Shown here piece by piece: positions 13,422 to 16,312 of a stretch of DNA of 64,000 nt. This DNA comes from Halanaerobium saccharolyticum subsp. saccharolyticum DSM 6643. GTDB taxonomy: Bacteria > Bacillota > Halanaerobiia > Halanaerobiales > Halanaerobiaceae. The position numbers were made by a program, and so were the translations under genes. The notes under the pieces are model-generated. The model saw nothing but the letters and a program-made list of their open reading frames with translations. It ran no database searches and was not told the origin of the DNA. The stretch spans positions 372,001 through 436,000 of the forward strand of contig NZ_CAUI01000005.1 in the NCBI RefSeq assembly GCF_000350165.1, read 5' to 3'. Positions within the stretch are counted from its first letter, which is position 1. Every line of letters starts with the position of its first letter.

Positions 13422-13847
13422 ATGAAAACTTCAAGAAAAACAGATTACGCAGTTCATGCTCTAATGATCTTAGCAAGAAATAAAAAGCAGGAACTTTCAG
13501 TAAAAGAGTTAGCAGAGATAGAAAATGTATCTTCATCTTATTTGGCAAAGGTGATGCAGAAATTATCAGCAGCTGAAATTGTCAGTTCTGCTGAGGGGAA
13601 AAAGGGTGGATATACTTTAGCTAGAGCTGCAGCAGAGATTAACCTGGCTCAGATAATGAAACTTTTTGAAGCTAAAGATAACGTATTTGAATGTGTTGAT
13701 GATATTCATGGCTGTTCAATTAGAGATAGGTGTAAAATTCATAATGTATTTGGCAAGGCCTACCAGAAAATGCTGGCTGAACTTGAGCAGACAACTATTA
13801 AAGATATTACTGATCCTGAAATCAAAAAAGGAAAGGATTTGATCTGA
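13422..13847 (+). CDS. Rrf2-family transcriptional regulator, probably Fe-S binding
   Basis: A 141-residue winged-helix regulator with the Rrf2 N-terminus (RKTDYAVHALMILA) and the recognition helix region ENVSSSYLAKVMQKL. Three cysteines in ECVDDIHGCSIRDRC, spaced C-x6-C-x5-C, match the cluster-ligand region of IscR/NsrR-type members, so it probably senses Fe-S status, redox or nitric oxide. Its TGA overlaps the ATG of the next gene by one base, coupling it to the glutaredoxin-thioredoxin reductase fusion, a plausible target. No operator was identified. Confidence 0.88.
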   Translation: MKTSRKTDYAVHALMILARNKKQELSVKELAEIENVSSSYLAKVMQKLSAAEIVSSAEGKKGGYTLARAAAEINLAQIMKLFEAKDNVFECVDDIHGCSIRDRCKIHNVFGKAYQKMLAELEQTTIKDITDPEIKKGKDLI

Positions 13848-15034
13848 TGAATAAGCCGAAGATTGAAATCTATACTAAAGTCTGGTGTCCTTATTGTAGA
13901 AGAGCAAAGGCAATGCTGAAGAGTCTCGGGCTTGATTATACTGATTATGATATTACAGATAATGAAGAATTGCAGCAGGAGATGGTCGATCGGAGCGGTA
14001 AAAAAACCATACCGCAGATATTTATTAATGATGAAAAAATTGGCGGTTATGATAATTTAATTGAACTTGTCAGCTCTGGTGGTCTTGATGATCTGATAGA
14101 ATTTGAAAGACCAAACTGCAGTGAAAAAGACTGGGATCTGGCTGTGATTGGAGCCGGACCGGCAGGAATGACTGCAGCAGTTTATGCAGCCAGAAAAGGC
14201 TTAAAGGTTCTGATGGTAGCCCGAGATATTGGTGGTCAGGTGCTGGAAACTGATACTATCGATAATTATCTACCGGAATATGGAACTTCTGGCCCGGATC
14301 TGATGCAGGATTTTTTAAGACATCTTCGAAATTACAAAATTGACACACTATTTGGAGAAGAGATTACAGACATTGAGCACCAGGAAGAGGGACACATTCT
14401 GCTTACAAAAAGTGGTAAAGAAATTAAGACCAGAGCAGTTTTAATAGCTGCTGGAACTAAAAAGAGACAGCTTGGAATTCCAGGAGAACATCAGCTCAAA
14501 GATAAGGGTGTAAGTTACTGTGCTACCTGTGATGGCTATATCTATGAAAATCAGCCTGTTGCTGTAGTTGGCGGAGGTAATTCTGGCCTGGAAGCAGCCC
14601 TGGATATGTCTAAGATTGCGACTGAAGTATATTTGATTATTAGAGGAGAACAGCTCTCAGGTGATAAAAGTCTGCAGGATAAGGTAAATAATTCAGATAA
14701 AATAGAAGTCTGTAAATCATACCAGACAACTGAGATAAAGGGTGAGCAGAAAGTTGAATCTATAAGAATTAAAAATCTAAATACAGGTAAAGAGCGAGAA
14801 CTTAATGTAAAGGCAATATTTATTGAAATTGGTTTAATTCCAAATACAGGTTTTATCTGTGAGCATCTGGATATTAATCAGGGCAATGAAATTATTATTG
14901 ATGAAAATAATCAGACAAGCATTGAAGGTATTTTTGCAGCCGGAGATGTAACAGATATTAAAGATAAACAGATTATTGTTTCTGCAGCAGAAGGTGCTAA
15001 GGCTGCCCTAAGAGCCAATGAATATTTGAGTTAA
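13847..15034 (+). CDS. Glutaredoxin-thioredoxin reductase fusion protein
   Basis: A 395-residue two-domain oxidoreductase. Residues 1-80 are a glutaredoxin with active site Cys14-Pro-Tyr-Cys17 and the TIPQIFI cis-proline segment. Residues 90-395 are a thioredoxin reductase: FAD motif GAGPAGMTAAVYAARKG, redox-active Cys225-Ala-Thr-Cys228, NADPH motif GGGNSGLEAA, and a C-terminal GIFAAGDVTD. The reductase can presumably pass electrons from NAD(P)H directly to its own glutaredoxin domain. It overlaps the Rrf2 gene by one base and is followed after 16 bases by the selenoprotein candidate, a likely electron acceptor. Confidence 0.92.
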   Translation: MNKPKIEIYTKVWCPYCRRAKAMLKSLGLDYTDYDITDNEELQQEMVDRSGKKTIPQIFINDEKIGGYDNLIELVSSGGLDDLIEFERPNCSEKDWDLAVIGAGPAGMTAAVYAARKGLKVLMVARDIGGQVLETDTIDNYLPEYGTSGPDLMQDFLRHLRNYKIDTLFGEEITDIEHQEEGHILLTKSGKEIKTRAVLIAAGTKKRQLGIPGEHQLKDKGVSYCATCDGYIYENQPVAVVGGGNSGLEAALDMSKIATEVYLIIRGEQLSGDKSLQDKVNNSDKIEVCKSYQTTEIKGEQKVESIRIKNLNTGKERELNVKAIFIEIGLIPNTGFICEHLDINQGNEIIIDENNQTSIEGIFAAGDVTDIKDKQIIVSAAEGAKAALRANEYLS

Positions 15035-15050
15035 AATGGAGGAGATCAAA

Positions 15051-15626
15051 ATGGCATGGATAGATATGGTAGATGAAGATAAGGCAGAAGTTAAATTAGC
15101 TAAACTTTATGATAAATTAACTCGATCAGGTGAAAATGAGGTGGCACATGTTTTAAAAGTTCAATCTTTAAATCCTGACCTTTTAGAGGACCATCTTAAG
15201 ATCTATAAGACTATTATGTTTGGCAGATCAAATATTTCCCGCAGGCAGCGAGAAATGATAGCAACAGTTGTATCTGATGTCAACGAATGTCATTACTGAA
15301 TAACACATCATGGAGCGGCGCTCCAAAAGTTGATCAGGGATGATGAGCAGGCAGATAAAATATTAAGTGGTATTTTAGATGATTATAAGTCAGCACCAAT
15401 TAGTGAAAAAGAAAAGGAAATGCTTGATTATGCTGTTAAATTAACTAAAAAGCCTGCCTCAGTGAAAAAGGAGGATCTTGATAGATTAAGAGAATTTGAT
15501 CTGAGTGACAGAGATATTCTTGATTTAAATCAGGTAGTTGCTTATTTTAATTATGTTAATAGAACAGCTGATGGCCTGGGAATAGAACTGGAAGCTGAAC
15601 ATAAAAAAATAAGAGGAGTTGAATAA
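15051..15626 (+). CDS. AhpD-like (carboxymuconolactone decarboxylase family) peroxidase-related protein, probable selenoprotein with UGA83
   Basis: Reading through the TGA at 15297-15299 gives one 191-residue protein of the AhpD/peroxidase-related family, starting at ATG 15051 behind GGAGGAG. The residues around the stop are Cys80-His-Tyr-(UGA83)-Ile-Thr-His-His87, with Glu68 before them. Spacings of 12, 3 and 4 equal those of the AhpD catalytic set Glu118, Cys130, Cys133, His137, so UGA falls exactly on the second redox cysteine. The frame continues intact for 108 codons with family-like sequence (YAVKLTKKP, VAYFNYVNRTADGLGI). A SECIS-like hairpin begins 12 bases after the UGA. The neighbours are thiol-redox genes. 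A simple nonsense mutation is the alternative. Confidence 0.82.
15297..15345 (+). promoter_or_regulatory. Recoded UGA and bacterial SECIS-like stem-loop
   Basis: After the TGA (15297-15299) come 12 bases and then the hairpin GGAGC-GGC-GCTCC (15312-15324) with a G-rich apical loop. In E. coli fdhF the SECIS upper stem starts about 11 bases after UGA, so the spacing fits. A lower stem CATCAT (15306-15311) with ATGATG (15340-15345) can extend it, leaving an unpaired 3' bulge. Confidence 0.7.
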
Positions 15627-15627
15627 A

Positions 15628-15972
15628 ATGGCAGCTGAAGATAGTTTAGTTATTTTATGGACAAGTGGAGATAAGGAAGTAGCAAAAAAAATGGTGTTCA
15701 TGTACACTATAAACGCTAAGAAAAGAGGATGGTGGCAGGATATTAAATTTATTGTCTGGGGACCATCTTCAAAATTATTAAGTGAGGATCAGGAATTACA
15801 GGAACAGATTAAAGAATTTATCGAAGCAGATATTAAAGTAGAAGCCTGTCAGGCCTGTGCTGATCAGTATGGTGTAGCAGATGATTTAGCAGAGCTTGGA
15901 ATTGAAGTTAAATATATGGGAGAACCTTTAACTGATTATTTAAAAAGTGAAAGTAAAGTAATGACATTTTAG
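15628..15972 (+). CDS. DsrE-family protein
   Basis: A 114-residue small cytosolic protein. It opens SLVILWTSGDKEVAKKMVFMY and later has VEACQACADQYGVADDLAELGIEVKYMG, the order seen in DsrE/DsrF-like proteins, where a cysteine may carry sulfur. ATG 15628 is preferred because AGAGGAG lies 9 bases before it. It starts one base after the stop of the AhpD-like gene and is the last gene of the redox group before a terminator. Sulfur relay is the family theme; the partner here is not known. Confidence 0.78.
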   Translation: MAAEDSLVILWTSGDKEVAKKMVFMYTINAKKRGWWQDIKFIVWGPSSKLLSEDQELQEQIKEFIEADIKVEACQACADQYGVADDLAELGIEVKYMGEPLTDYLKSESKVMTF

Positions 15973-16026: not shown

Positions 16027-16312
16027 TTATAATGACTTGTAGATAATTCTGCCTTTAGCAGATAAATTTATTTCCAAACAATTATTTTCCTGATCTCCTT
16101 TGATTACTTCAATTTCTTTTCCTAATCTAACTCACATTACCTGCAGTAGCTAACACTTCAAATTTATGTGTATCAGCTAATTCATTGATAGTATTTAAGG
16201 TTAATTGTTTAATTTTAGGATTATCTAAAATATGTTTTCTATATTTATGAATCCATATAAAATGATAATTTAAAAGGAACTTTGCATGTCTTGTGCTTTT
16301 ATAGTTATTCAT
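16027..16312 (-). pseudogene. Relic of an IS200/IS605-family element (truncated tnpA)
   Basis: The minus-strand frame 16312-16127 encodes about 60 residues resembling the N-terminus of the IS200 Y1 transposase (HAKFLLNYHFIWIHKYRKHIL). It stops before the catalytic tyrosine helix, whereas a full tnpA is about 130-150 codons. A further open minus-strand stretch (about 16136-16027) in another frame follows; it could be the tail of a second element gene, but I do not recognise it. The element cannot encode a working transposase. Confidence 0.7.

Follow-up and report, generated by a model that had tools for sequence, protein, structure and literature searches.

An AhpD-like frame with one internal UGA

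The window (the whole 64 kb stretch of DNA that was analysed, from the salt-loving anaerobe Halanaerobium saccharolyticum) exhibits a reading frame of 191 residues, running from the ATG at 15051 to the TAA at 15624-15626. The TGA at 15297-15299 is its sole internal stop and, when read as selenocysteine (Sec, U), becomes residue 83. Standard open reading frames (15036-15299 and 15330-15626) cut this sequence into two short pieces, which join into one protein if the TGA is read through, as proposed in an earlier note on this DNA. The features of the locus are the following:

13422..13847, forward strand: Rrf2-family transcription regulator, a conserved neighbour in Halanaerobiales
13847..15034, forward strand: glutaredoxin-thioredoxin reductase fusion (AhpF-like flavoprotein), candidate electron donor just upstream
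15038..15044, forward strand: putative ribosome-binding site GGAGGAG, 6 nt 5' of ATG 15051, read from the sequence
15051..15626, forward strand: predicted AhpD-like selenoprotein gene, TIGR01926 / CMD family, 191 residues with Sec83
15297..15299, forward strand: UGA codon, predicted selenocysteine 83, in the motif C80-H-Y-U83-x-x-x-H87
15311..15325, forward strand: predicted bacterial SECIS hairpin, 6-bp stem UGGAGC/GCUCCA with loop GGC, within the limits of the bSECIS model
15607..15632, forward strand: apparent deletion scar, where the TAG stop of the relatives is lost and the frame enters the dsrE leader
15628..15972, forward strand: DsrE/DsrF-like protein, a conserved downstream neighbour

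Further downstream on the reverse strand (16127-16312) lies a short ORF that we take to resemble an N-terminal fragment of an IS200/IS605-type transposase. When all six frames of the window were scanned for frames interrupted by a single TGA, the ahpD locus and one other candidate came up. The latter was discarded as an artefact (a 24-codon overlap with the preceding gene), and the ahpD frame is more than a product of chance. No second copy of the selenoprotein gene was found in the same genome.

The translated sequence scores 148.8 bits with TIGR01926, whose cut-off is 81.8, over residues 2-179 of 191, and it also matches the CMD domain PF02627 (35 bits, cut-off 23). The Glu-x11-Cys-x2-Cys/Sec-x3-His active site of the TIGR01926 type is present: in the translation with Sec, Glu68, Cys80, U83 and His87 keep the 12-3-4 spacing that the earlier note had read from them. 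Two other models naming selenoproteins scored below their cut-offs, namely the YciW-related family NF053654 (36 bits against 310) and the alkylhydroperoxidase-related family NF041238 (71.3 against 175). The latter (CFYUT type) is also an AhpD-related selenoprotein family with a CxxU motif, but the score of the window protein does not reach it.

The part of the frame downstream of the UGA was compared with the upstream part using three close relatives. The dN/dS ratios are 0.10, 0.04 and 0.06 on the 5' side, and 0.08, 0.07 and 0.11 on the 3' side. The downstream part is thus about as constrained as the upstream part. Together with the full-length TIGR01926 match and the lack of any frameshift, this purifying selection bears out the view that the frame after the UGA is intact and family-like.

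Selenium genes and homologues

The earlier note had made its reading depend on the presence of sel genes, and selA, selB, selC and selD are all found in the genome, an assembly of 2.87 Mb in 23 contigs with a completeness of 100. In the genome profile search selA scored 590 bits (cut-off 268), selB 353 bits (cut-off 242) and selD 378 bits (cut-off 125), while selC, the tRNA-Sec, was identified with 66.9 bits (gathering score 47) and an ARAGORN anticodon of TCA. The tRNA-Sec, selA and selB genes lie in a row on one contig (C18:67461-71001). The selD gene exhibits an in-frame TGA of its own (context ...TSGUAAK...) followed by a hairpin, so that the organism holds at least one further UGA-containing selenium gene.

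Genes 90-97% identical to the window gene, with a TGA at the same place, are present in three other Halanaerobiales of a public genome set. When the search was extended to 398 genomes from the phylum and 38 from the order, further genomes with TGA at the same column came up (42-96% identity), so that the TGA-containing homologues span about 42-97% identity over their full length. Close homologues from Halanaerobiales and other Firmicutes, 21 distinct ones in all, fall into one well-supported clade (97/100); 19 of them, the window gene counted, exhibit TGA and two exhibit Cys at this column. No third amino acid occurs there among the 21, in agreement with the expectation of the earlier note that close relatives would carry only Cys or Sec, and neither other sense codons nor accompanying frame damage were seen. 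Glu68, Cys80 and His87 are invariant in a 17-sequence alignment, and the more distant homologues L037-L040 exhibit CxYC at the active site.

Both Cys homologues (L054 and L055, with CHYC) are paralogues: the genomes they come from (G415 and G416, respectively) possess a copy of the TGA form as well. In the tree, L054 (L054:1504-2082) and L055 are nested within the Sec clade. Outside this clade, three distant AhpD-like genes (L042, L087 and L090) exhibit CxYU at the same column, followed by strong hairpins of unrelated sequence, which suggests that Sec has been used repeatedly and independently in other subfamilies of the superfamily.

The UGA form co-occurs with selA. In the phylum sample selA is present in all 12 genomes with the UGA form, which take in the distant L042, L087 and L090 types (256/398 overall), and in the order sample it is present in 11 of 12 (24/38 overall). 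The two samples have two genomes in common, and combined they give selA in 21 of 22 distinct UGA-form genomes. The sole one without a detected selA is G416, a 300-contig assembly.

A reassignment of UGA in this organism to one of the standard amino acids, Trp for instance, would fit the rarity of TGA as a stop in the window (2 of 45 long ORFs), but we reject this reading as having a negligible probability, given the complete Sec system, the fact that close paralogues have Cys and not Trp there, and the absence of an in-frame TGA from every other gene of the window.

The hairpin and the reading of the UGA

The hairpin downstream of the UGA is formed by the arms 15311-15316 and 15320-15325 around the loop GGC (15317-15319), its first stem base being the 12th base after the UGA, exactly where the earlier note had it start. 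The published bSECIS model allows a stem of 4-16 bp and an apical loop of 3-9 nt with a G in its first two positions, the loop lying 16-37 nt from the UGA, with an energy of at most -7.5 kcal/mol (PMC13188914). The window hairpin falls within all of these limits: the stem has 6 bp, two G open the loop, the loop begins 17 nt past the UGA, and the energy of a 42-nt segment is -8.6 kcal/mol. Searched against Rfam, the hairpin found no family; the only hit was a chance lncRNA match (10.5 bits), and this result is uninformative on bacterial SECIS.

The pairing is maintained among the homologues, and the TGA and hairpin recur together across independently assembled genomes. When 18 distinct sequences with TGA are compared, 98.1% of the hairpin cells hold a pair. 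Ten of these sequences have U-A as the outer closing pair and eight have C-G, and the inner C-G pair is replaced by A-U in one; these two pairs have thus changed on both sides. None of 500 shuffles matched the observed pairing or covariation score. Kinship among the sequences inflates covariation scores, and the safer comparison is with controls in which the partner strand is slid, where pairing drops to 35-67%. Such compensatory pairing is a supporting feature lying outside the published bSECIS model. In the outer pair, one base occupies the third, silent position of a His codon. Its partner is the middle base of the codon lying two past the Ala-Ala-Leu start, at which Gln, His or Lys gives way to Arg. 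The match in pairing is thus not due to the protein sequence alone. Set against synonymous shuffles, the hairpin energy stands out only moderately (p = 0.02-0.04 for Halanaerobium, with weaker values in some others), partly because the conserved H-G-A-A-L fixes much of the sequence; with so strong a coding constraint, this test is weaker than the covariation.

The Cys paralogue L054 retains five of the six stem pairs position by position (TGGAGC/TCTCCA). This remnant looks like a fossil SECIS left after a change from Sec to Cys.

Two readings in which the TGA is a genuine stop deserve mention. In the first, the ahpD-like gene is in decay and the TGA is a plain nonsense mutation. The surrounding gene order is indeed decaying in the genus, where the peroxiredoxin and FMN reductase genes are lost or broken, and truly broken partial copies of the selenoprotein gene exist in H. 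saccharolyticum (L016:4001-4210 / L056) and in genome G410 (L053:1501-1692), one of them adjoining a lipoprotein-like gene. These fragments show what true decay in the genus is like, and the window gene looks quite unlike them. An identical TGA column in independent genomes, a covarying hairpin, an unshifted frame and the low dN/dS after the UGA (0.07-0.11) lead us to reject this reading, which keeps practically no probability. In the second, the UGA is a regulatory stop: the 82-residue protein is the functional product and the full-length Sec protein a minor one. UGA decoding always competes with termination, which speaks for such a product. However, the 108 codons past the UGA are under purifying selection and supply His87 and the C-terminal helices of the fold, and we regard a regulatory stop as very improbable.

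The selenocysteine reading is backed by sequence evidence from the Sec decoding machinery, the conserved UGA, the SECIS hairpin, the family assignment and the active-site residues, and the redox genes next to it also speak for this reading. On these grounds the gene at 15051-15626 almost certainly encodes an AhpD-like CxxU selenoprotein.

Active site, gene neighbourhood and role

The AlphaFold2 model of the protein is all-helical (mean pLDDT 83). Its best structure matches are 2pfx (Silicibacter), 3c1l (Mesorhizobium) and 6k40 (Deinococcus radiodurans), with TM-scores by query length of about 0.72-0.79 and about 31-36% sequence identity. These proteins share the fold and the Glu/Cys/Cys/His positions, and HMMER alignments place E, C, U/C and H in register; all three have Cys where the window protein has Sec83. 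The debrominase Bmp8 (6ohi/6ohj) is also among the Foldseek matches, with 18% identity, weaker than the peroxidase-related proteins. M. tuberculosis AhpD (1gu9, 1knc) has the 12-3-4 catalytic spacing and the proton-relay residues in common with the window protein, but is a distant fold relative (about 11-12% identity, E-value = 0.026, rmsd 6.6-8.7 A), and a close match to M. tuberculosis-type AhpD in sequence or topology was not found. The active-site helices lie in the first half of the window protein, whereas those of M. tuberculosis AhpD are C-terminal (PMC3141380).

The assignment of the UGA to the resolving cysteine by the earlier note is not supported. Going by the spacing, U83 falls on Cys133 of M. 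tuberculosis AhpD, which is the cysteine reacting with AhpC. The mutagenesis of Koshkin et al. in 2003 reportedly named Cys133 as the catalytic residue. Cys61 of AhpC cross-links to Cys133 and not to Cys130; the former is exposed at the bottom of the cleft, the latter partly buried (PMC6626918). The same paper finds the first cysteine to be the more important one in Burkholderia thailandensis, so that the roles of the two cysteines may vary. By analogy with the mycobacterial protein, Sec83 would more likely be the attacking residue.

In the mechanism that we propose, SelB and Sec-tRNA-Sec would bind the hairpin just 3' of UGA 15297 and selenocysteine would be inserted, giving an active site C-H-Y-U with Glu68 and His87 as a putative proton relay. 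The selenolate at position 83 would most likely attack a peroxide or a disulfide partner, and Cys80 would then form a selenylsulfide with Sec83, to be re-reduced by NADPH-derived electrons, plausibly through the upstream glutaredoxin-thioredoxin reductase fusion. The protein is very likely a redox enzyme of the AhpD type, and we consider the catalytic chemistry as drawn here rather probable. Electron supply from the upstream reductase is plausible in this organism, and this route is put forward tentatively.

The gene order in the window is rrf2 (13422), grx-trxB (13847), ahpD-Sec (15051) and dsrE (15628), and its order and spacing suggest cotranscription under Rrf2 control. In the corresponding locus of an H. 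saccharolyticum relative, which likewise opens with rrf2 and grx-trxB, an AhpC/TSA peroxiredoxin and, after it, an FMN reductase stand between ahpD-Sec and dsrE. Only pieces of these two genes are left in H. congolense, and the Soudan MAG is without grx-trxB and the peroxiredoxin. In other Halanaerobiales families the selenoprotein gene follows an FMN reductase and rrf2, and precedes dsrE in two genomes. The grx-trxB gene adjoins it only within Halanaerobium and is therefore not a universal partner. No shared gene neighbourhood was found outside Halanaerobiales.

The window gene has lost the TAG stop of its close relatives and reads on through a few codons of the dsrE leader; a deletion between ahpD and dsrE has apparently removed the genes for the peroxiredoxin and the FMN reductase. 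Close copies of these two genes were not found elsewhere in the genome, where there are weak, distant matches (26-30% identity). Their loss appears stepwise among close Halanaerobium relatives (L013:4609-5903, L014:4614-5671, L015:4631-5266; window 15607-15632).

Peroxide as the main substrate has a roughly even chance. The chief alternative is a real selenoprotein with another job, such as a thiol-disulfide adaptor, a sensor, or an enzyme acting on another substrate, e.g. a halogenated compound as for Bmp8. AhpD-fold proteins, the structurally related Bmp8 among them, are functionally diverse, M. tuberculosis AhpD is itself an adaptor reducing AhpC (PMC6626918; PMC12028322), and a DsrE protein with a CxxC motif, which is a neighbour in several genera, hints at sulfur or persulfide chemistry. 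Against this, the AhpC/TSA peroxiredoxin adjoining the gene in H. saccharolyticum fits a peroxide pathway, and the Bmp8 match is the weaker one. We regard a role other than peroxide reduction as a substantial possibility that still falls short of an even chance. A somewhat bolder and unlikely proposal is that the Sec protein would be the central carrier of an Rrf2-controlled relay, from the Grx-TrxB fusion through AhpD-Sec to an AhpC-type peroxiredoxin and/or DsrE, from which lineages would have shed the peroxiredoxin, the FMN reductase and the reductase, leaving the selenoprotein, Rrf2 and DsrE.

As the earlier note recognised, the class itself is known. AhpD-like CxxU selenoproteins were described in 2005 from the Sargasso Sea (27 sequences, COG2128; PMC1088965), in 2006 from Alkaliphilus metalliredigenes (PMC1794560) and in 2008 from ocean metagenomes (two families, of 299 and 70 sequences; PMC2398784). 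An entry "AhpD-like protein, TIGR01926, CxxU" also stands in the list of a 2026 review (PMC13188914). The window gene shares the family model, the CxxU motif and the bacterial SECIS type with this published family (COG2128/TIGR01926; PMC1088965, AhpD-like 1 of PMC2398784, PMC13188914), a likeness by family model and motif rather than by direct sequence comparison. A. metalliredigenes is also a Firmicute anaerobe, and its selenoprotein (PMC1794560) is likened to ours by the shared COG, not by sequence. The open-licence literature that was searched yielded no Halanaerobiales example of an AhpD-like selenoprotein, and on Halanaerobium selenoproteins only a tRNA-Sec survey listing H. praevalens and an unrelated network paper. 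What is new here is the gene setting, with its Rrf2 cluster, Grx-TrxB fusion and DsrE. The window gene thus adds a well-supported member, with its gene context, to the AhpD-like selenoprotein class, and the Rrf2/DsrE cluster together with the Sec/Cys paralogue pairs of G415 and G416 gives a concrete means of probing the contribution of selenium in this fold.
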